DNA from: Deuterostichococcus epilithicus
Lineage: Eukaryota > Chlorophyta > Trebouxiophyceae > Prasiolales > Stichococcaceae
DNA: 64,000 nucleotides
Assembly: GCA_033439295.1 (NCBI GenBank)
Contig: JAVTLE010000010.1
Coordinates: 2,418,001-2,482,000 of the forward strand
Direction of reading: 5' to 3'
Of this stretch, positions 2,105 through 63,889 are shown in pieces. The translations under genes and the position numbers were made by a program. The notes beneath the pieces are model-generated. The model was not told where the DNA came from. It made no database searches and saw only the letters and a program-made list of their open reading frames with translations. Every line of letters starts with the position of its first letter. The first letter of the stretch is position 1.

Positions 2105-4120
2105 TCAGCGCCGGCCCGGCAGCGCCCCAATGATGCCGCCGCCGGCGCCGTAGAACCCCGGGTCTGTCAGCGGCCGCAGCAGCACGCCAAACAGGCCGAC
2201 GCCCGCAGCGGTTGCGCCAGTCAGCAGTGGCGCCGCCGGGTGAGCCGTCATGCGGTCAAAGTCCGGGAAGCCGAGCGCGTTGCACAGCGAGTGCACTGCA
2301 ATCGGCGCCGCGAGGTGACCGCTCCGGACGAACAGCCAGGTGGAGTACCAGCCAAAGATGCTGGTGTACAAAAATTGCGCCAGCACCTGCGCGGCGAGGG
2401 CATCGGGGAGGGCGTCATGGCCCTGAAACATCCTGTGTGTAATCTGCTGATGAGGGCCGTGGGCAGTCGTCCGGCGACTGCCCCCTTCATGCAAACGGGC
2501 ATGAGCAGGAGTGCCACTCCGCGTTGACCCAGGGCCCCTGCGATGACAGCGCATCCAGCAGCCTGCCACGTCGGCGTGCAAGCACCTGCTGGCTGACAAC
2601 GGCGAACGGTCCCTGCTGCACACTGGTCCGCATGCGCCATTGCATCGTGATCGTCGCAGATGGGCACCTGCTGGCTGGCGGCAGCGAGGGGCCGCCGCTG
2701 CAGGGTAACCAGCTCGTACAGGTGGTGCAGATGCGCCGCGCCAAAGTACAGCGGTACGAGCGCCACCGTGCGCTTCAGCGATGTGCCCTGCGCAGTAGGA
2801 TCACGTTGATCGCCTCCACGTCCATCCAAGAAGAAGGATGCCCAGTAGGAGATGTATCCCCCGGCTGTGGCTGGGCGGCAGCGACACGTCAGCAGAGTCA
2901 TGGACGGGCTGCCGCCCGTCAAGCGTGCTGCATCCTGTCAAGCCTTCCTCGATGTCCAAAAGCGACGCTCGCACGCCGCCGGAACCTCCAGGGCCACATG
3001 CACTGCAGGGGCGGCCAGGAGAGGCGGGCGCGACCCTAATCCCAAATTCGGCAGCAGCGGCACCATGCAGGCTCGGCCAGATGCATAGGAGGGCGGGCAT
3101 GCATCAGAGCACCCGAGGCAGTGGCCGTAACAGCGGCGACGCACATGTCTGTATGTATGCATCAAGACGACCAGGCATGTGTGGGCGCACCCCCAGCAGC
3201 AGCAGCGGCGCCATGCAGGCGCGGAAGGCGAACTCCTCTGTGACGGGCGCGATCAAGTAGTCGCGCAGTGCCCTGGGTCCCGCCGCAGGCGCCGTCCTCC
3301 TCTGCCGCTGCTCGCTTGCCGCACCGTCCTGCTCGTGAAATTCAAACATGGCGGATGACACAAGCCTGTCGGCTGCCATCGACACATTGCTTTTCTGCTC
3401 ACTCGACAGCCGTGCTAGGCACTCGAGGTGGAATGCACATGGATCAACTCCGACAGAAAAACCCTGCCTGCGATGCCGTGGCAACCGGGCAGGTCACTGC
3501 ACAGGGTGCTGCCCCCACTTGTGCGCGCCTGCTCCGGCAAGGTCTTTGCAGCGTCCGCAGTTCCGAGTCAGCAGTGGTCACCTCATCCCTCCGCCGGCGA
3601 CGCCTCTGCCTCTCCTCCAGGCGGTCGACCGCCAGCAGCGACAGCGGCCCCAGGAACAGCGCCGCCGTCAGGGCTACCGGGCCGCACACCGCCCGCAGCA
3701 GGCCGTCTGTTTTCAGGCCCAGTGCCGCTGGCAGCAGCCGCCACGCTTTGCCAGCGTCCTGTGTTGCGGTACATGATGTGAGGCACGGTGCGGCGGCCGA
3801 TGCAATGCGCGATGCCGCCCAGCACCCGTAGCTTGAACCGCCGCTGAGGCACTGTGCATGCGCCACGCTGCTCCTGGCAGCACGGCCACGAGCATAGCCT
3901 TACTGTTACCCATACAGGGAACCATACAGGGAACCACCTGCGTATGGGCGTGCAGCGCGTGCCACATGGGCAGCCACGCCACGCAGCAAGCCGCCAGTGC
4001 GCAGGCGGCGCGCCGATAGATTGTATCCGGGTCATCTCGTGGCAACGGCCGGCCGCGGTGCATCGGCAGCACATACGCGGCAGCAATGACGGCGCACTCC
4101 ACCCACGGCCGCCAGGTCAT
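2105..4120 (-). CDS. RCE1: CAAX prenyl protease 2 (RCE1/FACE2)
   Basis: ER-membrane glutamic intramembrane protease that removes the -aaX tripeptide from prenylated CAAX proteins. Five exons, all joined in phase 0: 3938-4120, 3582-3758, 3191-3328, 2668-2787, 2105-2422; about 311 aa, close to the usual ~300-330. Visible landmarks in order: LPRDDPDTI in the first loop, TAALFLGPL, the catalytic APVTEEFAFRAC (paired glutamates), the histidine motif FGAAHLHHLYE, then GWYSTWLFVRSGHL and HSLCNALGFP, and RPLTDPGFYG near the C terminus. The ATG at 4120 is the first in-frame ATG; the open frame extends upstream to 4315 without one. The 3' splice site of exon 3 (3328) was chosen for its pyrimidine tract; in-frame alternatives lie 20-30 bp downstream. 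Divergently arranged with PUS1. Confidence 0.9.
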
Positions 4121-7800: not shown

Positions 7801-9641
7801 CGTGTGCCACAGGTGGGGCCACGAGCCGAAACCGGCAGGCCGGGCAAGCGGCTGAGTCACTGCCGCAGGCCGTGTCCAAAGTTCCCTGCCCGCAACCCCG
7901 CCACCGCATCTCTCGGCCAGCAGCATTCACCCTGAACCCTTCCGACCGCAGGTGGAACCACGAGATGCGGCCGGCGGACCGCATCGAGCGGTCGCACCAC
8001 CGCCACATGCGGGAGTGCCGCCTGGAGGGCGGACCCGCGCCGCTGGCGCCGGGAGGCCCTGCAGCACTCAAAATCGTCATCGCCGGCGACTCCTTCATGC
8101 TGCACCAGATCAGGTGCGCCGTCCCACCCTGTGCTCCCAGAGCCACGATTGGCCGGAAAGCAGACAGCAAGCATGATGTGCCGGTTCCCAGAGGGTCGTT
8201 GTTCGGCAGTGGCCGTCCGATTTTATTATTAATTGCTCTTGCGAAGTGTGGACATGCAAACCGCAATTTTTGCCTTGCCCAGTCCGACATCATGCACAGA
8301 ACTGCGTTCAGAAGTGCGCATCCATCCATCTTCCAAAGCTCGGGCCACTGGCTGAAGTGCTCTCTTCGCCTGCCTGCCTGCAGGCACATGGTGGGCGCCG
8401 CGGCGGCGGTGGCCACCGACCGCGTCAGCTTGGAGTTTGCAGAGGCGACGCTGCACGTGCCGGCGCGCGCGGCGCTGCCGCTGGCGCCTGGCGCGCCGCT
8501 GGCGCTCGCCGACAATGCCTTCCTCACCTTCCCCAGGCGCGCGCGCAGCCCCCACAGGCCTGTGGTTCATTTATCTACATACTTGATAATGAACGTGTCA
8601 AGGGCCTTCCGGCAACGCCTTTCTGACCTCCCCCAGGCGCGCACCAGACCTATGTTGCCCCACCAGACCTGAAGTGCCCAACCCAACTTATATTTGCGTC
8701 AAGCACGCATCGGCCCTAGACCTGTGATGGGCAGTCTTGCTCCTGGTGAGCGCTTGCCGCAAGCTTTTAGGGTTCTGTAACCCTAAAACTCAAAGCGGGG
8801 CTTTCTCGTCCCGGAAACACCCTGCGGCGTACTCTGGGGCGTTGGGCCCAGAGCAGCAGCGGCGGCGCCAGCTGCAGGCTTGCCGGCACAAGCATGCAGA
8901 GCGGCAATGTCAGAGGGTGAGTCCGCCGCTGTGTCCGCCACTGCAGGGAGCAGCCCGGCGGGCCCCTGAGCGTGCTGGCGCTGAGTGGCGACCGGCTGAC
9001 GTTGCGCGAGGGTGGCAGGGCCCTGCAGCGGTCCTTCGAGACGGAGGTGCGCACCCGACCTCTTTTTTTGCAACTAGAACAAATATAAGGAGAAGCAAGA
9101 CAGCGGTGCGCGCCCGACCCCAGCGTCGAGCTGTGCAGGGCTGCAAGCACGTTCGCAGGCAGGTTTGCATGGTTCAGGCTCCAGAAGATCCTTGGTGCGC
9201 ACCTGTGGACGCCCCGTCTTGCAGCCCGTCGACCAGCCCTGCTCTGCTCCTCCAAGGCCCAACGGCGCTGCCAGCTGCTGAACCGCACGCCACGAGTGTT
9301 GGGTGTCTGCAGAGGCGTGTGCCGTCCGGCCTCTGGGTGGCGAACACAGCCGGAATGGATGACTCCAGTGACGCTGAGCATGCACGCTTCTGCAGGTGCT
9401 GCATCCCCACATCAGCACGCTGCTGGAGGGGTCGGAGTGGGACGCCTGGTGCGAGAGGCTGGCCACGCTGGCGTACCGACCGGAGGCTGTTCAGGAGGTG
9501 CTGGCGGCGGCGCAGGCATGGAAGGCGCAGCGGCGGCCGCCGCGGCATGGAAAGGGTGCCGATGCTGATGCAGCGCTGGCTGCTGGTGTCGGAGAGGCCG
9601 CTGCTGGCGCCGAGGCGACGGCCGCCGGCACTGCTTCGTGA
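4854..9641 (+). CDS. PUS1: tRNA pseudouridine synthase, TruA/Pus1 family
   Basis: Isomerises uridine to pseudouridine in tRNA. Ten exons: 4854-5169, 5500-5655, 6003-6094, 6321-6462, 6616-6749, 6992-7344, 7952-8113, 8384-8536, 8947-9046, 9396-9641; 617 aa, every junction in phase. Motifs: [12 protein letters not shown], catalytic Asp in [10 protein letters not shown] (about residue 155), [52 protein letters not shown], and [14 protein letters not shown]. The N-terminal ~85 residues are Ala-rich and could be a targeting or disordered tail. Exon 6 (118 residues) is low complexity with a poly-Gln tract and an acidic patch; it interrupts the catalytic domain just before the WNHE segment. The exon 8 donor reads CCCAG|GCGCGC, best explained as a GC-AG intron, because the next exon then continues in frame (phase 2). 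Shift of that donor to a downstream GT is possible but adds residues. Confidence 0.93.
7108..7141 (+). repeat. CAG-rich tract encoding poly-Gln in PUS1 exon 6
   Basis: Run of CAG/CAA codons giving eight consecutive glutamines inside the low-complexity insertion of PUS1. Confidence 0.9.
7696..7779. repeat. Short direct repeat with GGCAGTC microrepeats in PUS1 intron 6
   Basis: A 28-bp block beginning TCCGGGAGCCCTCAAAA occurs at 7696-7723 and again at 7752-7779 with one or two mismatches. Between them lie three copies of a CAGTCGG/GGCAGTC heptamer (7722-7743). Intronic; no coding role. Confidence 0.8.
8765..8788. repeat. Perfect inverted repeat with telobox-like arms
   Basis: TTTTAGGGTT at 8765-8774, loop CTGT, then its exact complement AACCCTAAAA at 8779-8788. 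It lies in PUS1 intron 8, the intron with the apparent GC donor. Confidence 0.9.
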
Positions 9642-10260
9642 GGTGTCCTTCAGGGGGACGGAAGTGCGGCAGGCGGCCTTTGAGGATCCATTGCGCACGC
9701 GCTGGCCGGCATTGCGTCAGAGCAGTTGCACTCGGATAGGCACTCAGCCGCCAGCTTCTCTGATGGATCCCGAAGCAACTGGCAACGTGCACTGGCACCT
9801 GCACCTCGCACAGCTGTATTGCAAGGTGCTTGTGTGCCGATCGTGGGGAGAGAGAGCGTGTCGTTGTTTGCAGCTGCTCTTGCAATCACATCTCTAGCGT
9901 AAAACTGGAGTCGGAGGCCAACAACGATATGCTGGCAAAAGCAAGCCCCAAAGCTGCTCAACGACCAAATCCGGAAAGACTGAAGACAACTACACTTGCC
10001 TACAGCATCAGGTATTGCGATTAAAACATTCTGAGCTGACCTTGATCATATAAGCAATCAATTCTCCACAATGCATGCCTCTCACCAATGCCTGGCATGC
10101 CGTTGCGCCCCTGCAAAAAGCGGCCTCCCGCAGAACATGCACTTCATGCAGCTGCAGCTTGCACCGCCTGTGGCTCAACTCTGGCAGAGGCAATCCTGAA
10201 GGGAGTTTCGACTCTGATGGCGGCCCGCACTCCTCCCTGAATCTGTCAAAGCCTCTCGTC
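9642..10260. other. Intergenic, convergent 3' ends of PUS1 and the protein kinase
   Basis: About 620 bp between two stop codons on opposite strands. Nothing recognisable on either strand; expected to contain both 3' UTRs and poly(A) sites. Confidence 0.5.
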
Positions 10261-13200
10261 TCAGCCGAAGCAGCTGCAGCACTCGCCGCGCTCGTCCATC
10301 GCCGCCACCTCCGCCACCAGCACCCGCAGCCGCTTGGCCACCTGGCACAGCAACAAAGCATTGTCGGGAAAGTGTTGCAGCACTTCCAGCACTTGCAGAC
10401 AGCCCCGCAGTGCTGCAGCCCGCACAACCAAGCAGTTGCACGTGCCCTGCCGCCAGCATTGCACCGCAACTCTGCTGATGCGAATCTCCCAGAAACTGCC
10501 TAGAAGCTGCTCAGGGGCAAGGCGCTCCTGACGCTGGAACGCTTCCACCGGTTTGCGCAGCTGCAGCGAGCGGGTTCAGCCAGTGCACAATGTCAGCACA
10601 CGCAGCCCTGCCGCCTCTCACAGCGCTGCACCGATGCGCACCTGCGCAGCCGATGGACGGTCGGCCGGCTGCTGGGCAAGGCAGGCAGTCACCAGAGCAG
10701 TCAGCGCAGGCGGCCAGCGGCTTGGCAGCGGCGTCCGGTACCCGTATGCGACCTGCAGGAAGGATCGGGCGCAAGATGGAGGCAGGAGCAATGTCCGAGG
10801 TTGGGACGGCGCCGGCCGACCTGCTGAAGGGAGCGCAGGTGTGACATAGTGAACCTGTCGGCCTGCCTGTCACGCGCTCTTGCAGCAGCTGCTGCTGCAG
10901 CAGCAGCAGCAGCATGGATCATCGATGACGGGAGGGTGGGATTGAGAAAAGGCGCCAGTGCCAAGCTGGCTTGGATTGGCAAAGCACACGGCAGGAAGGT
11001 GGCGCACCCGCATTGCATACCTGCGGTGCCAGCAAGAGCGTCAGCGACAGCGACGCATTATAGCAGGGTTGCCATTGCAAAATGCAGCCTCCTGGCTTTT
11101 GGACAACCGGTGTGGCACTCGTGAGGCAGTGACATCGCAACGCATGCCGCTGAATTTGCTCAGGCGGATGCCAAACACCATTTGCCTCCTGCAACACATG
11201 AGCGACTCCCCACCGAGCACGCTGTGGGTTGTTGAGACAGCTCGCCCTTCTCAGGGACCACCGGAGCAGGGGGCCCAGCGTGCTCACGTTTGAAACTCCG
11301 CCACGGTGGCGGCTCCCCCGAACTCGGCCGCTGTAAGCTCTTTGCTCATGACCTCTCGGATGACGCAGCCCAGGCTGAACACGTCTATGGACACAAACAA
11401 GAAACCATCCAAAGAGGTTGCACGCAGTGCACGTTGCCGATATCGAAAGCCACAGAGGGACACGCAGAGAAAGTGCAGGGTCCGAATGCAGGCTCGGTGC
11501 ATTGTTGCTGCACATCGGACACCTGGCCACTGACTGCGACACCACCTCACCCAACATTTCTCACCAACATGACTGACAGTGGTATGTCCATCTCTGTGTG
11601 GACATGGATGGTGAAAGGCGTCACTGTGACATGTGTTCCCAGGAGTGTGCGAATGTGATTGGCCTCGTGGATGGCACGAACGACTCGCCTGCCTTTTCAT
11701 TGTAGTGCTGCGAGAGTGTCACCTCCGGCGCCATGCTGAGGAACGACCCCGTCTGACCTGCAATAAGTCAGGCACCTCCTGTCTATGCATGCCTGTGTGG
11801 CACCTATTTCCATCTTCAGGTGGCAATCTGACATCACACAGCGGCAATCATGTGTGCCGTCTGGTGGACACGAGAGCCTGCAGTGTGAAACCCCTGGCTC
11901 TCCATGACAATACCCTGCCTGTGAGGTTGCGCTGCTGATCGGCCGCCAGCGGCCCGGCCGCCACTGCCGCCTTTCCTGCGCCGCCCTTTGGCTTCGCCGC
12001 CATGCTTTTCACCCTCCTGCAAATCACAGCAGCAACACATGCTCGAGTCGTCTCTGGTGACGTTGGGGGTGGGCAGATGAAAACGACCCAACAGCAGTTG
12101 AACTTATCCCGTGAGTGTTCCTGCCCGAGCAGCGGTCCCCCCGATTGTGACTGCACGGTCTGAAAAGCGATCAACCCTAGCAGCTGCCGTGTGACGCGCC
12201 TCATGACAGTGCTCGGCTGCCGCTCGACGAAGCTGGCGTGTCGCGCAGCGCCGCCGGTGCCAACCGCGAACGAAGCAGCGTTGCGGCGCCGCTGCAGCGC
12301 GGCGCCTCCCAGGGACTTGCTGCGGCGTAGTGCCGCCTCGCTGACGGCTCTTTTGGCGACCTTGCTGCCGTCCTCAGCGGCATGCTTGGCCTCGGCCTCC
12401 GCTGCATGCTTGGCCTCGGCCTCCGCTTTGACCCGCTCCAGCCTGCGGCATTGGACAACTGAGGATCAGGGTTCGGAGAGTCCGAATCTTCGCAGGTTCT
12501 GGCCTTTCCAGTGATGGCGCGATCGTCACTGGCAATGTGGGCTGCACGAATGCCAAGCGCCGCACAGGTCGAGGCCTGATGATGAAGTTCACCTCTGCAC
12601 CTGCTGCAGCCGCAAACATGCGAACGCGTTCACGGCGCGGCTCTGTCAATGCACGCAACCCTCCTCGGCAGTGAGTTCTCCCGGCAGGAGGATCAAAAGA
12701 CTGCATACAGGCGTTCGGACGGCTTTTTCCTGTCCAGCGCCTCCACTGTGGCATGCAGCCCGAAGTCCGCCAGCTTGGCTACCAGCTGGCCATCCTCGCC
12801 TGAGGCATGCGGCAGAGCGGTGTGAAGTTGCATGTGGGTTGCAATGTAGCAGAGCACTTCAATGGGTTCTCAGAGCATCGGAGCGTGTCAAGAGTGCGGC
12901 CATGGTGAAGGGGAGCCGGGCGGCAGGACGGTGGCATCATTGCACACTCAGTCCAGCTCGACTCTTTTCAGCGCTAGGATGAAGATAGGCGTGACCGCGC
13001 ATTGCAATCAGCACAGCAGATCGTTGCTGCGCAAATACACCTATCTCTGTGCCAGGTCCTGCTGCTGAGCCGCATTGAATAGTGCTGTGTAGTTTAGCTT
13101 CGCGATGCAGGAGCAGCGCAAGTCCCGCACAAGTACCGCGCTCACACACCGCAAATCTGGTGGGAGTCTGCAACACTGTCGAACCCTTACCATGACGGAC

Positions 13201-15149
13201 GCACCTGCCGTCAGCAGCACGTTGGCCGACTTGATGTCACGGTGAATGATGAGCGGCCGCTGTGCGTGCAGGAACGCCAGGCCGTCTGCGATTTGGGCGC
13301 ACCACTGCAGCCCCTGGCTGTACGTGTAGACCACCTGGGGGGATCATGTGCAGCAGCGTTGCATCTGGGCGCAGGCCAGTGTGTACCTCCCAGGCCTGCG
13401 GGTTTGGATCAGGGTTTGTCGGAACAAGCCTCCCCGCGCAAGAAGCTGAGCAGCTGTTGCCCGAGCTTTGTCAGACAGCTACAGACGCAAGCTCAGAGAG
13501 AGAGAGAGAGAGTGCTGTGGCGCCCAAACCTTCCATCCTTTGACGGCCATCTGCGCCAGGATCTTCTCCCCCAGCGCGCCGCCGGTGCACAGCTCGGTCA
13601 CCATGAACATGCTGTCTTGCAACACGCTGGCGTGGCTGTGTTCGGCGTCAAAGCCCACACCCAGGACCCCCACTATCGCCCTGCAGCGCAGCGCAACACA
13701 CGTTGTTGTCTCATCTGCGTCCCTGTCAAGGTGGCCCTGCACACTGAACTGCCCTTTCTGACATCCTTCCCGCCAACTTCCGCTGCTAATTGGAGGCCGA
13801 CCGTGGGCTACTGGCATGCGTTCAAGCACTGACATTCCGTGGCATGTGTTTGAGCCTTGACATTCCGCACCTGTGCCGTAGGCCCGCCATCAGCACCGCC
13901 TCCTTCACAAAGTCCTCCACGTCCAGAGGGTGCTGAAAAAGCTCCGCCCGCAGGTACTTGACGGCAACATCCAGGGCCTCCTCGCCGCCTTGGGCCCCCC
14001 GCGCGACGCCACCCCCAGAAGCAGCAGCCGGATCCCGCCAGCCAGCCAGTTGGCAGTGCGCCACGGTGGCAAATGCGCCGTAACCCAGGTCCTCCACCTT
14101 CATTGGAAAGGCCAAACAACTCTTGCTGGCACACAATCACCAATCAGGACATCCTCAGAAACCACATGCGGCGGCAGCGGCGGCGGCGCGTCTTCCAGTG
14201 CGTGTAGTAAACCCAGACTCGGGCCAGGACTGCCTTACACGAGTGGCACGGGATCCGAGATCAAACGAAAGTGTCGATAGCTTGGGGGGAAAGCAGGGAG
14301 GTTTGCACCTTGCTGAGGTCGGCGGCTTCCACAAAGGCGATGCCGGCAGTGTGCCGCAGCTCCGCAAAGCGGCTGATGGCGTCCAGCGCCGCCCGGATGC
14401 TGCTGCGCTTGAGCGCGGAGTAGTGCGCCAGCGCCTGCGGGACGGAAAGCCAATGTTACATGCTAGCAGCAAAGTCCCCTCCTAATGTCACCTCGACCTC
14501 AGGAAGGCACTTGAACACTGCCTGCGGCGGCGAGCCGCGGAGACACCAAAGACATTTTGGAGTACAGCGCAGCAAGCAGACAGTAGACACAGAGTGGCAC
14601 GCGCATCATGCAGGCGTGGGCACTGCAGATCTTATTTCCACTTGCGGGCAGCAGAGCCTGACAGGTGACACCAACACCACAGCTGACCCTGCAGCGGGCC
14701 GCTTCCCATGATCCCCACGAGGTTCACATACCACCTGCGGGCGGCGGCCCGGCCTTGATCAGGTGGGACAGCAGATCAAGCCTCGGGATCTACGCTTGAG
14801 CCCCAACACGCACCTCTGCCGACGCCTGTTCCGACAGCACCGGGCGGTAGATCAGCTCAGGGCCGCCGGCGCCGCGCTCCCCGCCCGCCTGCGCCGCACC
14901 ATCCTGCCTTCCGCCAGTGGCGGCCGGCTGCTCAGACGTCGCGCCGTCCAAGGGTGGCAGGGGAGCGCCGCTCGACAACACTGCCTGGCTGTTGAAGTGC
15001 TGCGCGTTCGCCGCGGCCTTGCCGCTGGCTGCATTGTGCGGCGCGCCGGCCGGAGCTGACGGCGCATCTGCCGGCAAACTGGCCCCTGCAGTGTACTTTG
15101 TCTGTGTTGCCGCGTTTCTGACGGCTTCAGCCCCAGGCAGCGCCGACAT
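10261..15149 (-). CDS. TKL-like protein kinase with long activation-segment insertion
   Basis: Thirteen exons (right to left): 14814-15149, 14309-14434, 13871-14097, 13530-13680, 13205-13334, 12709-12799, 12200-12442, 11919-12016, 11689-11757, 11288-11384, 11008-11020, 10642-10752, 10261-10560; 663 aa with every junction in phase. Catalytic landmarks: Gly loop GYGAFATV, Lys in VAVKYL (about 201), LIIHRDIKSANVLL (HRD about 311), KLADFG (335), TGSFLSMAPEV (APE about 478), EKADVFSLGCV, and WPPALTALVTACLAQ with PADRPS in the C lobe. The N-terminal ~150 residues are Ala/Gly-rich and the C terminus has a Leu-rich tail. DFG to APE spans about 140 residues instead of the usual 20-35; the insert is Ala/Lys/Arg-rich and encoded by exons 7-8. 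Exon 11 is only 13 nt. The junction after exon 9 has a GCGAGT donor; exons 7 and 8 are also best joined through GC donors, though all-GT alternatives exist there. Substrate unknown. Confidence 0.85.
11008..11020 (-). other. 13-nt microexon of the kinase gene
   Basis: GTATGCAATGCGG, flanked by acceptor CACCGCAG and donor GTGCGC, supplies the third base of a Thr codon plus Tyr-Ala-Met-Arg. It converts phase 2 of exon 10 to phase 0 of exon 12 and yields YAMRVAYGYRTPLP, the expected start of kinase subdomain X. Confidence 0.75.
12380..12427 (-). repeat. Exact 24-bp tandem duplication in kinase exon 7
   Basis: Two identical 24-bp units, 12380-12403 and 12404-12427, encode the eight-residue repeat AEAEAKHA within the activation-segment insertion. 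Confidence 0.95.
13494..13512. repeat. (AG)n microsatellite
   Basis: About nine AG dinucleotides in the intron between kinase exons 4 and 5. Confidence 0.9.
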
Positions 15150-16906
15150 GCTGGCCGATATCTTTGCCAGGTGAGGCAGCCGCTGTCTGTCTCCCAGCGT
15201 GCCTTAGGTCTTGAGCAGGAGCGCCACGGGAAAGCTGGTGGAGGCGCAAGTCCTGGGACCGTAGCAATTCACATGCTGATGCTGCAGAATCGCTTTGCTT
15301 AGCTTGCGGTGCTGTGCCGTGTCTCGCTTTGTGGTCACTGGACTAGTTCCTGGACAGCGTGCGCAAACGCCTCTTTCTGCCGGCTGCGCAAAGTCTTGCT
15401 GTTCGAGAGGCTTTGATCGAGAACACCTACAACCAGACTTCAATGCAAGACTGCAATGCCCAGCGTCGACTGGGCGAACTGTCGACGACGCCCGGTAAAC
15501 CGCACACTACCAGCCTGGCCAGAGCCAGCCAGCTGACGCCGTGCGTTGGTTTTGACTCGCAACGTAAACGTTTCGCAACCTCAGTGCGTCAAGTATATCG
15601 CATCAACATCGCTCTGCTCTGCGTACATGGACCCTTGAGGCTCGAGCCAGAAAGTAACGTACACATCGCGCAATCTTTGATCGGTCCTTGATCGAGGGCA
15701 GCTTGGCTCGCAGACCCGCGTTTGCAACCTTGCAACGCTCAGAAAATCAGCTGACGACATATTGAGACAAAGGGCAGTGTTGCTAGCTTATGCTCTACAC
15801 CAGTGCTGCATTAGCCAGCGGTTTGAATGTTGCTTGTCCAGTCTGTTGTTTTGAGGACGGATGCAGCAGCTCTAGCGACTGCGATCTGGCAGGAGTCAGA
15901 GGTCTGACATATCTCTGTCCAGCGACATCAGCCTGCATGTGGCCTTGTGCTACCTGTACCAGCGGCAGCCACCACGACAGCCTTGCTAGCATGCACATGC
16001 TGCCCCGCCAACCGCCCCTGGCGGCTGCTTCACAGCCAACCGTCGCCGCCCGTTCCCGCCCCATGGCTGTCTGCAAGTCTCGAGCGGGCGCGGCGGGCCG
16101 CAGTTCATGTGTCATCGATGCTGCCCCAGGCAGTGCCGCCGCTATCGCAGCAAGCGGCGCCGGTGCCACTGCGGCGCCTGCAACGGCAGCATACGTAGCC
16201 AGCCAAAAGCATTCGCCGCCGGCAGTGATCGTGCCATTGCCGTTGCCGCTGCTGCAGCGAGCTCAGGCTCAGTGGCCAATTTCGGCGGGTTGGAGGCGAC
16301 AGCAAACGACGGTTGGACGTCGCGGCAGTGGTCGCTCATGCCGTGCAACAGCACAATCGTTTGGTCAGCGTGCTGCTGCGAGCACGGCGGCGCAGCATAC
16401 CGCAGCCCGCCGCCATAGTATTGCGCCTGCGGGCTCCTGCTGACCAGACCGATGAGGATGGACATGGAACTTGGCTCGTCCACGTTTGGCAGCCTGCACG
16501 TTCTGCAGCTGCGGTTTGTGGGACAGCGAACCTGCTCGCCAGATCTCCCGTCAAACTCTAGTCGGAACTGGCGACATCCGTCTTGGCATGTTCAAGAATA
16601 CCACGACTGTAACAACATGAGGGCCTCCGGTGAAGGGAGTCGCCATGATACCCTCTTACGAGGCCTGAGCAGCGCTGCGCACGAACAGTTTGATTGATTG
16701 AGCCACAATCAGTGCACAGCGCTCTGCTGCTGCTGGGCATGCAAAGTCGCGCAATCTGCATACATCTCAATCTGAGTACAGCAAGAAACGAGAAGTGTCT
16801 CCGATCAATATGGCGTCGTTCAGCGAGGGGCAGCGGCTGGTTGCAGGACAGACGCCAACCGCTGGCCTGCTGACGCCGACCTTTCCGCTGGTGTAACAAC
16901 GTGCCA
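15150..16906. other. Intergenic spacer, kinase promoter side / MgtE 3' side
   Basis: About 1.76 kb. A 217-codon open frame on + (15790-16443) and several on - are present, but they have Ala/Ser/Pro-rich composition without a recognisable domain and look like GC-rich chance frames. One minus frame around 16300-16400 includes a short string resembling a hydrolase nucleophile strand, without support from flanking exons. Confidence 0.4.
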
Positions 16907-18875
16907 TCAGGTGTGGTTTGCTGCCTGCCCCAGCAGCGGCTGCGGCCCGTGGTGCAGGGAGGGATGGATGACGGGGTCCAGGATAAGGTTGCAGCACACG
17001 CACGTGATGCCCACGCCCAAGACGTCCATGACCACCTGCAGTCGACTTGGTTGACACAGTAAGGACGGCGCGCTGGTTGACACAGTAAAGACGGCACATT
17101 GCGGTTCTGGGGTTCAGACAAGCCCACGACTCCACAGCCGCCTGTGCACCGCTCAAAAGGGCGTGGAACTTGGCTAGGACCACTGCACAGTTTCCGCTGA
17201 TGGTACTCGCTGAACAGAAGCAGACTCGACTGCTCCTGCTGATGGGCAGGCTCAGGCGCGCACAATCGCGTTGCTGCCGGCACAGGCAAACGTGCACCCA
17301 CACGCAAAACCGACGCCCAGACGATCAAGATGCTCTTGGTCATGTGATAACGGCAGTGCCAGCTTGCTCAACCGGCACCCGCCAGGGGCGCGCGCTCAGA
17401 AAAGGCCCTGCCTGGATGCTGCTGCCGGCATGGGCAGGGTCCAACCCTGCACGCGCGAGCGCAAAGGGCAGCGCCGCCCCCAGCAGCACGCTGGACAGGA
17501 CGATGAGGGCCAGGCTGGCGGCGATGGCGGCTGCGTCGCGCAGCACGCCGTGCGTTACGTACACCCGCGCCAGCCCGCCGACTGCAGGCAGCCACAGGAG
17601 AGTGACCTGGCTCCAGCAGGCCATTGATGCCTGGGCGCTGCTTGTCCGCCGGATTGATTAATTAATCAAAACGACACCAGGCGTGTCTATGGCCCCGACT
17701 ACTATCGTGCCAATGATGCCAGCCACAGCGGGCAGCAGATTGACCAGAGTTTGTTGAAAGGTTTGCATGCTGCATTGCGTTTTGCATGCTGCATTGCGCA
17801 TCGGCCTGCTCGGTGTGAAGTCCAAATCCAGAGGGCTGAGTTGCCACACGCGAGACTGGTGCTACAAGGAGCAGATTGAGCCCACCTGCCAGTGCCCCGC
17901 CCAGTAGCAGAGCTACGATCGCCTGATTAAGCAGCACCTGCCGCGCACTACGCAGCGTCGGTCGGTACTGCCCTGTCGCCTGCGGAGCAGCCAGTCAAAG
18001 CATCGCTGCAGGTCGTGCCTACACTTCAACCAAAACTTTCTCCTGGCCTGATCGGGAAGCGTCATTTCAGGTTTGCGCTTACCAGGTGCGCACAAGCACT
18101 GCAGCGTCAGGGGTCCTGCGAATAGGTGTGGCCCAGCTTCATGTACGACAGGCTCACTGCTCAAAATTGATGACCGGGCTGTATGACGCTGCTATCACGA
18201 CTGGTCCACGACAGGCCTGCTGCTTCAGGTTATGTGGCACCAGGGCAGCATGACCAGGCGGAGGCTGCAGGGCGCCTGCTTCCAATGGGGCTGCTTCTAA
18301 TGAGGCACTGCAATCAGGCGGCTTACCAGGCCACGGATGACCTTGATGGCGCTTTGATTTCCGGCGTTTCCTCCGGCGCCCACCTGCGGTGTTTTAACCC
18401 TCACGTGAAAAGGAGATCCACGGCCGACTGCGTCCTCACTCGGCCAGCTTGGCTGCGGAGGCAATGACCACATGCGGTAGGGAGGCAGCCTGCATGCCAG
18501 ACAGAAGGTTCGGGAGGCCACACCGTAAAGTGGGGGAGGGGGGAGGTCTGCGGCGCACCAGCATCGTCAGGAAGAAGGTGACCACCAGATGCCGCTTGAG
18601 CAGGTCCTGCACACGGCCGGCTACGCATATGAGCATGCCAGCAGGAGCAGGCGAAGGCGCAGTGAGCCTAGGAGTGGTTCGGCCCATCCCACTTCCGAGT
18701 GCTTGTGACGACGGCGCTCAGCAGGCACGAGGACCTCAATCGTGCAGTTCGCCGCAGCAAAGTCGCCATCACGTGCGGCATGCTGCCCTCAGGGCGCAGC
18801 ATGACGCGCACCTGATAAGCGTCCAGCACAGCGCTGCTTGCACTTTGCAGCACTAACAGGCCCAGCAGCCACCGC
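16907..18875 (-). CDS. MgtE/SLC41-type divalent cation (Mg2+) transporter, 5' end unresolved
   Basis: Membrane Mg2+ channel/transporter domain. Six in-phase exons: 18812-18875, 18559-18606, 18327-18383, 17886-17979, 17412-17581, 16907-17035 (about 187 aa, one MgtE domain, which is about the length of the domain alone). Motifs: RWLLGLLVLQSASS (first membrane helix), LLKRHLVVTFFLTML, the family signature VGAGGNAGNQSAIKVIRGL, ATGQYRPTLRSARQVLLNQA, ASLALIVLSSVLLGAALP, LDPAHAGSSIQ and VVMDVLGVGITC, ending LLGQAANHT-stop. The last intron starts CAG|GCAGGG; removing it as a GC-AG intron gives gap-free alignment to the family in the last helix. The first exon begins in phase 2 (acceptor CCGCAG), so at least one upstream coding exon remains; it may be short, or belong to the exons at 19057-20217. 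No CBS or MgtE_N domain was seen. Chloroplast or other organellar location cannot be judged. Confidence 0.85.
17049..17096. repeat. Tandem duplication, ~22-bp unit, 26-bp period, MgtE last intron
   Basis: GGTTGACACAGTAA followed by a GACGGC-type tail occurs at 17049-17070 and 17075-17096 with two mismatches. Confidence 0.85.
17762..17798. repeat. Tandem duplication, 18-bp unit, MgtE intron 4
   Basis: TTTGCATGCTGCATTGCG at 17762-17779 and again at 17781-17798, identical. Confidence 0.9.
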
Positions 18876-19056
18876 CTGCGGCAGGGGCCGGGCAATCTGG
18901 TGAGCTGTCAGTATTCAGATAGCAATGACTGCTACAGTCTGCTTGCAGGCCTGCAGCGATCCCGCCACTCGCAAGCTTCTGCGGGAAGGCTCTTGACGGC
19001 GCAGGCCGCCGGCGTCCGCATCCGCAGCTCTAACCCTATCCTGTCAGTGCGCCGCA

Positions 19057-20217
19057 CCACGGTGTCCGTCGAAAAATAAAGCACCAGCCTGCTGCAGCCG
19101 CGTGCAGACATGCGCGCCATCTGCACCCGTGGCAATACGACTCGCCACACCAATCCCTTTGACTGCGGCGCCGTCAATGTCGTGAATGTCCGAGGCGCAC
19201 CCCCTGGCCCACGCCTCCGCCACAGGCCCCGGAAGATGTGGATGTTGCGCAGGCGGAGCCGCCCCTGAACCTGCGGCTACGGCTGCTCCCCGCTTGGCCG
19301 GAATCGCCAGGCGCGCATTGGCGCCGCAATTGGCGGCCAGTTTGCCCAGGAGGTTGGCGTCATTCCCTACCCCTGTGCATGACGCGCCACAGCTGAACGG
19401 CGCGGACTGTGCATGAGGGCGCCGTTGCCTGCTCGTTGTCGTGCAGAGCGTGTTCTAGCATGTGCTGCCCAGATGACTGAATGTGTGCGTGGAGGGGCAG
19501 CAGCAGCAGCAGCAGCATTTGTTTGTAGCTTGAGTTCGCTTCGAGACTTTGGCAACTGTGCCAAATTCTCACTCGCTGACAGCCCTCACCTGGTGGATGT
19601 TGCACAGCGCTGAAGTGCGCCTGCTGCAGACGGCAGCCCGCCGCCTCCGCCGCGCCCACCAGCCGCTGGAATGCGTCCAGCGCGGCGGGCTGCCCGCTGC
19701 CACTGCCGTGTGCCAGAAAGAATATGTGCGTCACGTCGGAGTGCGCCGCCAGTGCCGCCTCCGGATTGCGTGTATCGTCGGCGATGCGGAGCGCCTGCGC
19801 CATGAGATCGTTAACTATGAAATAATTCAAGCGCATGGGACCTGTCATGCTGCTTATGGAGGCTTGATGAAGGATTAGAAAACAGCCTTGCCTCCTTGCA
19901 GGAGCCATGCATGGCGAACAGGACGGCAGCGGAGAGTGCTCGCGCATTACTGGTGAGGGGAGGGCCGGCTGCAAGGAACGGTCGCCGAGGTTCTCGGATA
20001 GATTTGCCACCTGTGCGCCAAGTTCCTGGGCTGGCGCATCCGGGAAGTTGGTGTACACTACATCCCACGCTTTCGAACATGCCAGGGACTCCGCCAGCGG
20101 TGTCGTGGCGGCAGTCAGCTCGCCAGCAATCAGGGCGACCAGTCCGCTCCTGCTGGATTCCAGGCCGTCCAGGGGATCCATGTGAACCGCCACGTGCGGC
20201 TTGTGCCTCAAGTGCAT
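19057..20217 (-). CDS. Unidentified gene or N-terminal part of the MgtE gene
   Basis: Three exons join in phase: 20011-20217 (ATG at 20217), 19590-19794, and one beginning at 19372 whose 3' end is unclear; read straight through, its frame stays open to a TGA near 19057. Donors are GTGGCA and GTGAGG; acceptors are GCGCAG and GCACAG. The product begins MHLRHKPHVAVHMDPLDG, then contains DVTHIFFLAHGSGSGQ and GVGNDANLLGKLAANCG, a hydrophobic-strand/Gly-rich pattern typical of a soluble alpha/beta fold. I do not recognise the family. It lies directly upstream of, and on the same strand as, MgtE; several phase-1 donors in the third exon (for example GTGCGG near 19070) do not match the phase-2 start of the MgtE exon, so a fusion is not demonstrated. 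The exon boundaries are inferred and uncertain. Confidence 0.35.
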
Positions 20218-20741
20218 GAGGGCATGCTGGGTGCCCGGCGCTACATGCGCCGCAAGGGGCCTCAACGCGGTCGCTGCAAATGTTTGAGTGGCACTGGACT
20301 GTATCTGGGATCCTATCTTAGACACACTAGCGATGATCAGGCGCAGTGATGGCAAGGAGCAGGAAGAAGAATCGCCGTGGTTTGGTGATCGAGTAGGATT
20401 TCGAATTGGCGCGGAATACGCAAGGCTGGTCTCTGAGATATGCACAGACTGCTAAAGCACCTGCAAATGCTGAAAATGACTAGCAGCTGAGTCCGAACCC
20501 AGAATCACTTCCGGAGCGAGCACGTGAGCAGTTCAGACCAGGTGCGACGACGGTGCAGCTCGCCAATTCCATGTTTGACGCATCAGTGTCGCCTGAAAGA
20601 TCATATGTAACAACTCCGATAGCGTTCAAGCCGCATCGGCAAACGACATCATCAGCATAAGTCCCACGTCAACTCAGCCCAGCAATCGTCAGCAACACGA
20701 ACATGATGCCCGCCTCGCAAGAACTATAGCAGCACATAGCC

Positions 20742-23700
20742 ATGGCATACCAGCCGGCATGGTTCACGCCGGAGCGCCTGCTATTCCTCTTCTGCTGCAT
20801 GAGCCTGCTGGTCTATGTCGACCGAGGCGCGCGCCTCTGCCTGACTGGTGTATTGCATATTCGTTTGCTTCCACACGCTTCCTACACTTCTCAGGTATAG
20901 ATCACAGGTATCAAGCTGGCAGCACAGCAGTGCAGCCCCTTTCAGCTCACAGGAGACCTGTTGTTGCAGGTGTCATCTCCAGCAATGGCGTGAATGGTGC
21001 CCATGATGCCAGCGGCGTGCCCGGCTATGGCATCCAGGTGACACTGCCGGCTCTGTAAGCGAACTTGAAGGAGACGTCCGGAGTGGTTGCATTAGCTCGA
21101 GCATCGCGGCGTTGAAGCTACATGAGCCAGCGTGCATGGGCAAACCAGCGATCTGCCGCCAGGCGGGCGACAGTGGTTGGGCTTGTGACATGTCAGCTGC
21201 CTTCAAAGCTCTGACTTCTGAAGCGTTGCCCGCCAAACTTCTGTTCAGCCAAGCCAATCTTTGAACAGCGCTGCTGCTGTTGGCAACTGCCTGGCCTTGG
21301 CGTACGCAATTCATGGCAGCGATCCATTTGCAGGGTGACTTTGGGCTGTCGCTGTTTGAGGACGGTGTGCTGCCCGCGGCCTTCATGGTGGGCCTGCTCG
21401 GCGCATCGCTCGTGTTCGCACAGGCCAGTCACACCGTCAACGGTGAGCCTCGGCTGTGGTGGGCGTCTCTGGACGGCAGTTCTAAGGCTTTAGTAGTCCT
21501 AGCATGTGTGCGCCCTGACGACTTCTGCCAGCAAGTGCGGCTGCTGCCGTGCACACCATTTTCATTGTCCATCGAGCACCAAGCTGGAGCTTGATCGCAA
21601 CAAGCGACAGGGCAGTGGCCGCCGCGCTGTGGCGCTCCGCATCGAAGGCAAGCTCCCAGACGAGGCACCAACTCCCCCAGCGCAGGCTTCCGGCTCATTG
21701 GCATCGGGCTGGGCATCTGGACGCTGGCGGTGGTTGGCAGCGGCGCCGCCATTGGATTCTGGAGCCTGGTGGCGTGTCGCATGTTCGTCGGCGTTGGGGA
21801 GGCATCCTTCGTGGCCCTTGCCTCGCCCTTTATTGGTGCCGCTTTTGGTCTCGACTGGCTAGATGCTGGTTGACGAAAAAGGCAGCCGATGTGCGTGGCT
21901 CCCATCGGCTTGGCGTATGCTACAGGACAGGGGCTGTTCATGATGTGCCTGGGCTGCACATATGGCAAGTGTCCATAGGTCGCTGGCAGGATGTCACATC
22001 AATGCCAAGTGCGTGACGCTGTGTGGTGACTGCTCACAACAGTTCGGGCCTTTCCTAAAAGATTTCCACTCACCAAACTGGTGCCCCCGCCGGTTGCCCC
22101 GCAGATGACAACGCGCCGCCGCAGAGCAAGTCGCGATGGCTGGCGACCTTCTACTTGTGCATTCCTGTCGGCTATGCGTTGGGCTACATTTTTGGCGGCC
22201 TGGTGGGCGGCTCCCTCGGGTAAGCTTGAACAAATCTGTGCTCGAAGCATCCTCTCCTCGAGGCCAGTCGTGCAATGTTTGTACAATCACTCAACTGCGC
22301 CATCTCAGGACACTGGCTGAGTGGGACAACAGCACCTGATGCACAGCAGCCGGCGCAACAGAAGCTGCCATCGAAGGGCCTTCCTGCATCGTCGGGGGCA
22401 GGCAGGCCCTGCTGGCGGCTGCCAAGAGCCTTTCCGGAGCATGAGAAACCAACAGCCGCCTCCTGCTGCGCAGGTGGCGCTGGGCATTCTTTCTAGAAGC
22501 GCTGGCCATGACACCCTTTGCGCTGTTCTGCCTGCTGGCGCCGCCCATCGACATCACCAAAGCTGGTGCGCCGTGTCTTCATGGAAAATTAGGGGCCATG
22601 TGTCTGTCAGTGCAGCCGCCGCAACGCTGTGCAGCACCGGCGATGTCGCTGGCAAGGCCGTTGTTCGAGCTGCAGCTTCCGTGCACAAGCACGCAAAAGT
22701 GTCCAAGCGTAGCCAGACAGCCCAGGCGGAGCTGCTGCAAACCTATGCCGACAGGCCGAGTCGCTGATGGTTGCCCCTGCCGTGCAGTGCCGGACGCTGA
22801 CAAGCGCGGGGGTGGCGAGGCGGGCGCGGCAAAGCGCAGCCAGGTGCAGGTGCTGGCTGGGGACCTGGCAGCCATCTGGCGGTGCCCCGTCTACGTCACC
22901 ACGGTCCTGGGCACGGCGGTGTACACAGGTGCGCCTCCGAGTCTCGGTCCTCGGTCCCGAAGCTGCATCAGCTTGCGGGTTGCATAACCCGGATCCGATC
23001 AGCTGGTCCAGAGCGACGTGACTGCAGTGCGCCCGCGCGTCCACGTGAGCAGGCAGCTTCGATGCAGGACCGGGACTGCTGCCCGCCGTTCATGGCGGCT
23101 GCCGCTCGTCGGAGACGGGAACGAAGCACGACTTCAAAGCGCGGCCATGCATGTGTGCGCGCTGACGGGCGGCGCTCCCTGAAGCGCGGCACCCCGGTGC
23201 GCAGGCGTGCTGGGCGCGTATGCGTACATGGGGCCAAAGGCCGGCCGGGACGTGTTTGCGCTGGCGCCCGAGACAGCAGACCTGACCTTCGGCGCCATCA
23301 CCGTGCTGACCGGCGTCCTGGGCACGGTGAGTGCTGCCTGCATCAATATCAGCATAGCACAATGTCACTCTAGTTTCATAGATCGGCCTGCTGGTGTGCA
23401 CCTCCCTCTTAGCGTCGGGGATTTCATCCCTGAACCCCTAAGCCTGCAGCAGCAGTCCACACGGCGTGCCGGCTTGGGCTGTGGCGGGCCGCCACAGCCG
23501 CGATGCCCCGGTGCAGTGTGCACCAAGACAGCGGCAATTGCTGCGGCGCCCTCGGACACAGGACCGAGCTGTCGCTGCGGATTCTCGTTGGGCAGGTCCT
23601 CACTCTGCGAACTGATCTTGTCAACTCGTGCACCGCAGGTGGGCGGCGGCATCGTGCTGGACTGCATCGGCAGCACCATCCCGCACGCGCTGGCGCTGTG

Positions 23701-31500: not shown

Positions 31501-34500
31501 CGCACGGACACCAGCCAGTGCAGGATGCCTGGCAGGCAGGCAGCTGCAGGCAGTGGGTCCCCACAGCAGGCCAAGCAGGAGGCGGGCGCGTACTTGTTGA
31601 GCGTGAGCGTGCCGGTCTTGTCCGAGGCCAGCACCTCCACTCCCGACAGCTCCTCCAGCGCCGACAACCTGCGAGCAAGGCGCAGGTTGTCGCCCCAGGT
31701 TGGCAACTTTGGCACAAGCAAGGCTGAACGAGGCGCTTCATGAGGCAGCAAACAGCACTGACGAGTTGCCCGCTCTGCATCCTTGATGTGCCCGTGACTG
31801 AAGTTGCAGCGGCGCTCAGGGGCAAGGCTGACCCTGGAAGGTGCAACTGGAAGGTACAACTCAAGCGCAGACGTATCAGGGCAAGCACGGGTCGTGCATC
31901 TGTCAGTGCAAAGGGCGGAAAAACGCACCGGCTGACGATGGCCTTTTCTCTCACCATCTCCTGCGCGCCAATGGCCAGCACCGTGGTAGTTACCACCGGC
32001 ATGCCTGCAGCGCATCCCGCGAAGAGATTCCAGTGGCATCAGGCGAATCTGGTGTATCGTCATTTCAGGTTTGTCATGAACACGATTGCCCGCTGCTGGC
32101 ACAACCCTGACAGGGCTTGTCATCGCTGCGACAGCAGTCACGCAGGCGGCTTTGCCAATCATGCTGGCATGACCTGATGATGGCTTCCAGATCCAGCGCA
32201 CCGATGGGCACCACCGACACGAAGATGACGAAGAAGACGACGAAGCTGTAGCCGACCGGCTCCCCGCGCACCAGCAGCACGATGAAGATGGCCAGCACGC
32301 AGATGAAGGCAAAGACCCCAAAGGCAATGGTGACGCTGCCCAACACCTGGTGCATGGCGGCAGTAACACCCGTCAGCTCGATTCTGTTGTTTGTCATTGG
32401 GTTCCGGGATCAGGGTGTACTACCTACCTGTCATGTCCGGGCATGAAGCGCCGGCGGCGAGGCGACCTGGCGGGGGATAGTGACCCCCAAACTCAAGCGC
32501 CCTATCTGCCTACCAATACAACTAGAGCACCGACGCTCTGTTGAACCGGTTGGCCAGCCTCCCCACTGGATGCAGCCTGATCACATTTGGACGAATCAAG
32601 GGGTTGCGAGTCTGCACAACATGTCAGGCCGACGACAGGCCGCACAGGAACTCATCGCATGCACCTTCTGCAGGTGGCCGCGCTCCTCAGGGGCGCCCAG
32701 CAGCGCGATGGTCTTGCCGAAGAAGGTGTTGGGTCCCACTGCAGTGACCACCGCTTCCAGCTCCCCCTGTGTCACGCTCGCGCCCGACAGCACCTGCACA
32801 GCGGGTCGGACTGGTCTGTCAAAGCAGAGCAAGGCCGAGGGCGTTGCCACGTATTGTCCAATTCTTGCCTTTGTGCTTGATCTCGCAGCTGCCTCAAACG
32901 GAGCTGCCTCAAACCGCAGTCTCCATGCAAGGCAGCCATGCAAGCGGTCGCCTGCATGTGCACCAGCAATGGGCACTGGCATTTGTGGTAGCTGACTGGC
33001 ATTTGTGGTAGTGGCGAGGCAGGATGAGATGTGTTGTCCGCCATCTGGCAGACCTGGCATGGCAAGGGTTGAAGATTTGTCTGTGGGTGCTCACCGAGTC
33101 GCCTGGCTTGCGCGTCACAGGCAGCGACTCTCCGGTGAGCGATGATTCGTCGATCTTCATCGCCTCGCCTTTGCCGATCAGCTGCAAAGAGGCGGAGGCT
33201 GTCTTGTCAGCACATGCTGATGGCTGGCATGGTGGCAGTCTGGGCTGGCACACCTGCACACATGCAGGCATGCAACACTTGGGCGCTCGAGGTGCAGCAG
33301 GGAAGACAAACTGTGCACGACCATCAATCAGAGACCGCAGGCTCGACGGCAGCCTCGATGTAGACGTGACGGCACGGTCGGAGTGCTCTGATGCCACATA
33401 CTCGGCGTCAACGTAGGCAACATAGTCGGCGTTCAGATCCGCACCCGGCAGTCGGCAGGAATGACATCACCGCCCTTCAGCGCGATGATGTCGCCCATGA
33501 CCAGCTCCTTGACTTGCAGTTCACCCCACTTGCCGTTGCGCTTGACCATTGCGGTCGGCGCGGACAGCTCCTGAGCGCGAGAACCGTGGCCAGATGTGAG
33601 CTTAGGGCTGAAGAACCTGGATGCGTGCTCAGGGTGGGGCGCGCGCACTGCAGAAAGTACAGGTCGATAGGGCTTGCGCACCATCGAACCGCCCGGCTCA
33701 ATGTGACAGGCGCACCCATTTCACAGCTTCCTGCTAGACCATCCCTGCCGCCTCTGCTGCTGCTCAGCCATGGTGGACTGCGTAGCAACCGCCCCCACCC
33801 ATCCCTGCCTCCCCGTATTTTTAGATTTGTTTTTTTTCAGCTCACCTCCAGCTCTTTGATTGCGTTGCCGGCATTGCGGTCGCTGTAGTAGCCGGCCCAC
33901 ACAATGAGGTTGAGTTCGAAGAGCAGCAGCCCGAAGCTTGTCCAGCCGCGGCCGCCGTCGACCGGCACCGCCGCGCTCACCACCGCTGCAGCAACCTGCA
34001 GTGCAGGGAGGCGATCGTCAGTGCAGCACCCCCTGCACGGGGGGAGCTGGCAGGGGCGGCGTCCCGACGTGCACTGCCATGACCGGAATTCGTGCTTGGA
34101 TGAGTCAGCTGCATCAGACGGGCCCCAGCTGGTCGTAGTCTCCCAAAACACTCATCCATCTGTGCTGCAAGACTTCACGAGCGTGGGCAGCCTTGAATAC
34201 ATTGGGTCAATCCAATGGCGGATGCTTGCAGTAAAGCCTCAAATCATGCATCGTCAACGCATCATTGTGCGGACATGGCGTGAACTGCTGAAAGTATGAC
34301 TCTAGCAAAATGAAGGCGCACGATGAGGATGCAGATCCAGTCGCCAAAGCGCCGCGCGATCTTCTTCCACTCCGGCGTCTGCTTGGTTTTGACCTCATTG
34401 GCGCCAAAGCGCTCCCGCAGCTGCGCCACCTGATCGTCGCTGAGTCCATTCTCGGCGTTGGCGGGGTCGATGCCCTCAGGCCATTCTTTGGACGTCTCTG

Positions 34501-62485: not shown

Positions 62486-63889
62486 ATGCCTAGCCTTGGC
62501 GCCATGCCGCTGCTGGTGCTGCCGGTATTACTGTGGTTTGCGGTCGAGATCTTCGACAACGTCGACCTGACGCCGCGCTCGGAGACGGCCACAATATTGG
62601 TCAACCAGATTCAGGCAGGAGGTGGCAGTGGCGCTTCCGATGAGGCGAACGCTGCGGAGGTGGAGTTGGCGGCTCCAATACCGTCGCCTCCGCCGCCGCC
62701 ACCCAAAGCCTGGGACTACTGGCAGAAGGTCCGTCAGCCAGCCTACGCATCACTTTGATGGCAGTGGCACACCTTTTCAGCGTGTCTGGACCCAGTCAAT
62801 GCTGCTGTCTGAGTCAGCTTGTAACAGCTGTGTCGCTCGCAACAGGCGCTGATCTCTGCAAATGCCACGGGACTGCCCCCGCCGGTATACCACGGAAACT
62901 GGATGGAGGCAGCGCATGGGCGGTTGCGCTGGTATGAAGACGATGGCAAACCGCGCCAAATGCGGCCGATCACATGGTGAACCCTCAACATCGGGTGCAC
63001 AGTGCATGTCGTCTTCCTGCCTTCTCAGCCGCCCTCTTCCCGGTGCTGCTGGGTGGGTGAGGAGGAGACGAACCTTTTTTGTGACGGAACAGCGCAGGTC
63101 CGCTCAGGCAGCAAGGCACCAGTCTTGATGCACCGGCGTGTCCGACTGGCAGGTGCTGCTGCTGGCAGCACTGCTGGACCTTAAGGAGCTTGCTGCTGCT
63201 GAACATATGCAAGAACGTGCCGGCACCTCGGATGTAGCAGTTGCACAGCTTGAACGCAGTTTCACCCCCGATCTCGGTGTGCAGGTGGGGCTATGCGGAC
63301 CCTGCGCCACAGCCCGAAGAATCCAAGGCGACAACAGGCCGCAAAGGCTCAAAAAAGCGTGGCGGCAAGGGCGGCGGCAGCAAGAAGGGCGGCGGCGGCC
63401 GCCGCAAGGGTGGTATGGCCGCCGACTCTGCGGCGACGCAGCGCGCAGACAAGGAGGATGCCGACGGCGGCGGCGGCAGCGACGGCGCCGCCGCGGCTGA
63501 GGCGGATGCGCAGCAGCGGCGGCGGCTGGCGGCGCGCAGGGACGGGACGGCCAGGCGGCTGTCGCAGAGCAGAGACACCGAGTCATGGGAGACACGCACG
63601 CCGCCGCTTCAGGCGCGTGGCACCCTCACAGGCGCCTGTCACGCAGCCAGCGCTGATCAGCAGGTCGGATGGGGGCTTCGTAGCATGCAGGATGAGTTTT
63701 CGGTGCACGCCACACTCTACACTGTCCGGAGTGGCGCAACGTTGCCTTCCCGGCGCAAAACGAAGGCCTTGACATGTGCAGGAGCGAGGCCCGGCGCCTA
63801 ATATGCGCGGCAAGGCAGAGGAACGATCCTACTACCTACCCTGGATCCTCAAAGACCTAGCGCCCTGGAAGGAGAATGGCATTGACGAG
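62486..63889 (+). CDS. CAP10/GT90-type glycosyltransferase, copy 2 (5' part, partial)
   Basis: Four exons: 62486-62728, 62846-62976, 63285-63612, 63815-63889, ending at a GTGCGC donor at 63890; the gene runs off the right edge. The start MPSLGAMPLLVLPVLLWFAV is a signal peptide or type II membrane anchor, as expected for a secretory-pathway enzyme. Then come a Pro-rich stretch before WDYWQK, a second exon with PPPVYHGNWMEAAHGRLRWY, a Lys/Gly- and Ala-rich exon (SKKRGGKGGG), and ERSYYLPWILKDLAPWKENG, which closely matches ERSFYLPWILQGLQPWAAHG of copy 1. The catalytic part is outside the window, so the family is taken from copy 1. The exon 3 donor is CAG|GCGCGT if read as GC-AG; a GT donor five bases later also closes in phase. 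Confidence 0.6.

Follow-up and report, generated by a model that had tools for sequence, protein, structure and literature searches.

The GC-initiated introns of this genome are very probably ordinary GC-AG introns of the major (U2-type) spliceosome, accounting for approximately 4–8% of introns, in which the loss at the second donor position is compensated elsewhere in the site. A donor with C in place of T at its second base would forfeit one pair with U1 snRNA, and extra A residues at −2 and +3, pairing with the standard U1 5′ end, would offset that loss. GC-biased composition, together with a U1 able to accept a single mismatch when the remainder of the site is strong, may then have allowed T-to-C changes to persist. 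From the sequence evidence we infer that the GC sites are spliced in vivo, and ordinary machinery acting on compensated sites is the simplest account.

The window, a stretch of 64,000 nucleotides on contig C9 of a 46.8-Mb genome in 21 contigs, is eukaryotic DNA, probably from the nuclear genome of a green-alga-like organism, with many introns per gene and, across its length, a GC content of ~62%. Training data of 264 kb comprised the window and four 50-kb blocks of contig C1, so four of the five training blocks derive from a single contig. The gene model combined coding, intron and intergenic Markov models, weight matrices for donors and acceptors, both strands, and frame and stop rules; it was trained without labels from an equal small starting weight for all 15 non-GT donor dinucleotides, and thus did not favour GC. 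After convergence it predicted 78 genes in the 264 kb, with the donor consensus CAG|GTGCGC and the acceptor TGCAG|G; the 36 predicted GC introns follow CAG|GCGCG. The introns counted here are predictions of this model. Margins of individual sites were obtained by banning the dinucleotide within 4 kb on either side, and neighbouring GC introns of one gene share one value.

After training, the 503 predicted introns consisted of 464 with GT donors, 36 with GC, 3 with AG and none with any other dinucleotide, a GC share of 7.2% (95% interval 5.1–9.8). With equal fixed priors, at four settings, GC received 23–27 calls and every other non-GT dinucleotide at most 4; at a prior of 0.005 the counts were 25 for GC, 4 for AG, 2 for GG and at most 1 for each of the rest. 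All five blocks contribute GC introns (6/123, 10/96, 7/99, 6/116 and 7/69), and leaving out one block at a time returned 21/476 with equal priors, the runner-up dinucleotide reaching 4, and 37/473 with trained priors. The held-out set was made up of 20 further stretches from remote parts of C9 or from other contigs; they overlap in places, and each junction was counted once. GC donors were called there in 4/71 introns with equal priors and 5/69 with trained priors; in this small set (n = 71) equal priors also gave AC 2, AA 2 and TT 1, five other non-GT calls against the four for GC.

Simulated genomes show how these counts should be read. In a genome simulated without GC donors, the caller returned GC at 0/463 introns if dinucleotide weights started equal and were then re-estimated, and at 2/870 with fixed equal priors. 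Imposing the trained 7% prior on such a genome produced 10/462 false GC calls, and the trained count of 36/503 therefore includes some false calls and may be too high. Under fixed equal priors, simulated true shares of 0, 1, 4 and 7% came back as 0.23, 0.64, 2.03 and 2.95%, and the real data returned ~4.4% to 5.3%. At a simulated 7%, both intron ends were exact in ~70% of GC calls (102/145). Weighing simulations and priors together, we put the GC-donor rate at 4–8% of introns, above ~1%. An earlier reading of the window from its sequence only (hereafter the sequence-only reading) had suggested GC donors at several percent, above the usual 1% or so, and the trained count and the estimate from 264 kb and simulations uphold it. 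Of the three AG-donor calls, two (CAG|AGGCG), at 33571–33753 (−) and 3329–3605 (−) of the window, have margins of 0.9 and 1.7 and are probably errors. U12-type introns are those with AT-AC ends or with ATATCC/GTATCC-type donors; the absence of AT donors among the 503 predicted introns and the fit of the GC donors to CAG|GCGCG both tell somewhat against this class.

GC donors carry a context of their own. A stands at −2 in 32/36 GC donors versus 272/464 GT donors (p 0.00027) and at +3 in 11/36 versus 35/464 (p 0.00013), and no significant difference between the two sets of predicted introns was found at −3, −1, +4, +5 or +6. When GC donors were simulated in the GT context and recovered by the same caller, A was present at −2 in 81/145 and at +3 in 6/145, both exceeded by the real GC donors, so the enrichment is not a detection bias; A at +3 is in fact disfavoured by the model's own donor matrix. 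Among the real predicted donors, the mean number of Watson-Crick pairs with standard U1, position +2 excluded, is 5.17 for GC and 4.37 for GT (p 4.8e-5). GC donors thereby regain ~0.8 of a U1 pair, the greater part of what +2 costs them.

Four GC sites had been claimed in the window by the sequence-only reading, and all four are present where it placed them, within one base (Table 1); the model makes six GC calls in the window. The kinase junction AAGGCAG|GCGAGT...CCATAG|AC yields the protein HYNEKA-DVFSLGCVI. Homology backs a GC intron at this position, with a Pfam kinase score of 125.2 bits compared with 100.1 for the best GT-AG form, in which 22 residues are deleted. The accompanying statement that no GT alternative could be found was too strong: the searched range holds 16 in-frame GT-AG combinations, the best having a signal score of −1.0 against 7.0 for GC. 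At the MgtE junction, ATCCAG|GCAGGG, GC splicing gives GSSIQ-VVMDVLGV within the protein stretch GSSIQVVMDVLGV. The gene model itself picked a GT form, which adds 11 residues, but the Pfam score supports the proposed GC intron (71.1 bits versus 65.9 for the GT form), and the GC form, which is the one compared with MgtE structures, aligns to them with a gap of one residue next to the junction.

Table 1. Supported, probable and predicted GC-AG introns of the window (positions counted from its first base)
Intron	Junction	Position	Strand	Basis
GC-AG intron, protein kinase gene	G|GCGAGT ... CCATAG|AC	11385..11688	−	Model call; GC form outscores best GT-AG form in Pfam
GC-AG last intron, MgtE/SLC41-like transporter gene	CAG|GCAGGG ... 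CTGCAG|GTGG	17036..17411	−	Pfam score, MgtE structure alignment
Probable GC-AG first intron, spinster-like MFS gene	CGAG|GCGCGC ... GCAG|GTGT	20827..20969	+	Model call, margin 2.0 log units
Probable GC-AG intron, PUS1-like gene	CCCAG|GCGCGC ... CTGCAG|GG	8537..8946	+	Model call, margin 15.7 log units
Predicted GC-AG intron, same kinase gene as 11385..11688	ATGAG|GCGCGT	12017..12199	−	Model call
Predicted GC-AG intron, same kinase gene as 11385..11688	CACAG|GCAGGG	11758..11918	−	Model call
Predicted GC-AG intron	TTCAG|GCGCGT	63613..63781	+	Model call, margin 5.9

At the two remaining sites homology does not decide. The spinster-like gene likely has a GC first intron; the model calls it, although at a small margin, and the GT form inserts 7 residues. 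Homology favours neither form there: the Pfam scores are 75.2 bits for GC and 75.9 for GT, and the alignment to a solved structure begins past the junction. Spinster proteins presumably read DRG-x-I-x-SNGVNG. Paralogues were considered as arbiters of this junction and set aside, all six genome matches falling in the gene's own exons. The proposed PUS1 intron is supported by its splice signals, with a score of 12.4 against 0.9 for the best GT-AG alternative, but homology does not discriminate, the junction lying outside the Pfam domain (25.2 bits for GC, 24.9 for GT). Among five further sites listed as possible GC donors, those at 12199, 11918 and 63613 are called GC by the model and those at 58013 and 61557 are not.

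Domain-level support for GC junctions extends beyond the kinase and MgtE proteins to SNM1A-like, KpsF-like and ankyrin proteins, whose genes were picked for holding GC calls and thus bear on the sites and not on the rate. Structures of DNA cross-link repair 1A match the SNM1A-like protein (E 8.7e-50), and neither of its two GC junctions falls at a gap; the first sits in the D codon of the HAHSDH stretch, and a GT alternative there reduces a Pfam match of 28.7 bits to none. In the KpsF-like protein, also with two GC junctions, the alignment to a phosphosugar isomerase is gapless and contains the second junction, with the first at two residues from its edge; by the table values, structure 3fxa spans both junctions with equal lengths. 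With a GT alternative at the second junction SIS scores 30.9 bits in place of 68.1, and the ankyrin protein falls from 56.2 bits with its GC junction to 43.8 with the alternative. A METTL16-like gene was rejected as homology evidence, its prediction containing a repeated stretch beside the GC call; one of its GC introns is in the held-out count. The PRPF40-like protein g029 likewise was not used, though an FF-type Pfam match covers one of its GC junctions.

Genes for U1 snRNA were also located. The standard 11-nt 5′ end ATACTTACCTG is present in 8/10 U1 loci, one of which (L014) lies below the Rfam cut-off, and a change at the U1 base facing donor +2 was found in none of the ten (41 of 864 first-look candidates were scored, and further copies are possible). 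Non-standard 5′ ends occur at two loci, L013 with ATACGTACCTG and L011 with ATGCTTACCTG. At L013, positions 1501–1662 (contig C10, 224723–224884) hold a divergent U1-like gene with G at position 5; it scores under the Rfam cut-off, has an altered Sm region and retains an upstream AACCCAT element (CCCAT at −67). In the window and loci L015–L034, C occupies donor +4 in 244/464 GT introns, a base with which position 5 of standard U1 does not pair. The G at position 5 of L013 could pair with this C, the commonest +4 base in donors here.

A contrary reading is that the GC calls are misreadings and the real GT donors lie some codons away, leaving lineage-specific short insertions or deletions in the proteins. 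In-frame GT-AG alternatives are indeed present within the searched range for 35/36 GC calls, the model itself took the GT form at MgtE, and homology in the spinster and PUS1 proteins is compatible with GT forms. Only 1/36 GC calls, however, is outscored on splice signals by a GT-AG alternative (5/36 have margins below 3, the site at 20827 among them), the tested alternatives cut domain scores in the kinase, MgtE, KpsF-like, SNM1A-like and ankyrin proteins, and misreading would not be expected to give GC donors their own +3A context; we regard this explanation as very unlikely. Extremely improbable is a general relaxation at +2 in which other dinucleotides also are used. Under equal priors other dinucleotides do receive occasional calls, as such a relaxation might leave, but in the training data GC outnumbers the next dinucleotide at least six-fold under equal priors, the leave-one-block-out comparison is 21 to 4, and besides GC just the three AG donors survive training; the held-out stretches are too few to contribute much here. 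The sequence-only reading had proposed that the lineage relaxed the second donor position; GC is raised, as that reading stated, but relaxation is too wide a description: GA and GG stand at 0 after training and at most 4 and 2 with equal priors, noise level, and the GC donors are compensated at −2 and +3.

An altered U1 snRNA that permits GC donors, comparable to what has been proposed for a copepod and a tunicate with GA donors, seems to us just as improbable. Two of the ten U1-like loci do deviate, but neither change faces donor +2, the other eight are standard, and L013 combines a score under the Rfam cut-off with a changed Sm region. A related idea, also very unlikely, is that the minor U1 copy at L013 co-evolved with the +4 C of CAG|GTGCGC and helps to hold donors, those with GC included, to which standard U1 pairs weakly. 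More Watson-Crick pairs would form with the L013 U1 than with standard U1 at 244/464 GT and 24/36 GC donors, and fewer at 113 GT and 7 GC donors. Compensated GC donors read by the ordinary major spliceosome remain the account that we prefer.

We take the survey cited below as PMC3033335 to be that of Iwata and Gotoh, 2011. High GC-AG usage in GC-rich algae is already published in that survey, and the present case is a further example to which measured compensation is added. Its passages on GC-AG introns give rates of 39.6% for Aureococcus anophagefferens, 22.2% for Micromonas pusilla, 7.7% for Chlorella sp. and 2.7% for Micromonas RCC299, relate the rate to genomic GC, find the U1 5′ end to be standard in Aureococcus and both Micromonas, and describe as an enigma how GC-AG introns arose in the two most extreme species (PMC3033335). 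By these figures the present genome stands at about the Chlorella level, and it shares with the GC-rich algae a high GC content and GC-AG introns well above 1%, and with the three species examined for U1 the standard 11-nt U1 5′ end. The −2A/+3A compensation measured here is absent from those passages, and the present genome is perhaps among those counted there. In a limited literature collection, no further algal GC-AG rate and no paper pairing 'trebouxiophyceae' with 'GC-AG' was found, and published cases may exist. Plants likewise combine a GC donor with an AG acceptor, at an average of ~1.2% (PMC6310983) compared with ~4–8% here. The GA-donor lineages resemble this one in a lineage-specific rise of a non-GT donor, but there the donors are GA and accompanied by a U1 variant, whereas here they are GC with standard U1 in 8/10 loci.

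Compensation at −2 and +3 offers a straightforward explanation for frequent GC donors alongside a standard U1, a point that PMC3033335 leaves open for the two most extreme species. There is also a practical consequence: gene finders that allow GT only, or GC at 1%, would put several percent of the exon borders of such genomes in the wrong place, and misplaced borders add or delete residues in conserved proteins, as the present model's own treatment of MgtE exemplifies.

Other spliceosomal components found are in keeping with ordinary machinery. ACAGAGA is kept in both U6 loci found, and the genome also contains a METTL16-like gene and two LUC7-like genes, the latter with GT donors only in the model. 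The sole strong zf-U1 match (L046) was rejected as U1C, its predicted protein not resembling U1C. A relaxed zf-U1 search returned two weak neighbouring matches on one strand of contig C12, covering profile positions 1–12 and 15–31, which look like a U1C gene split by an intron. An element, AACCCATAACTG, lies ~70 bases upstream of U1 in seven loci, L005–L011 (CCCAT at −70 or −71), and is possibly an snRNA promoter element of this lineage. At L011, a U2 snRNA gene (214–409) is located ~1.1 kb from the U1 gene (1501–1662) on the same strand.
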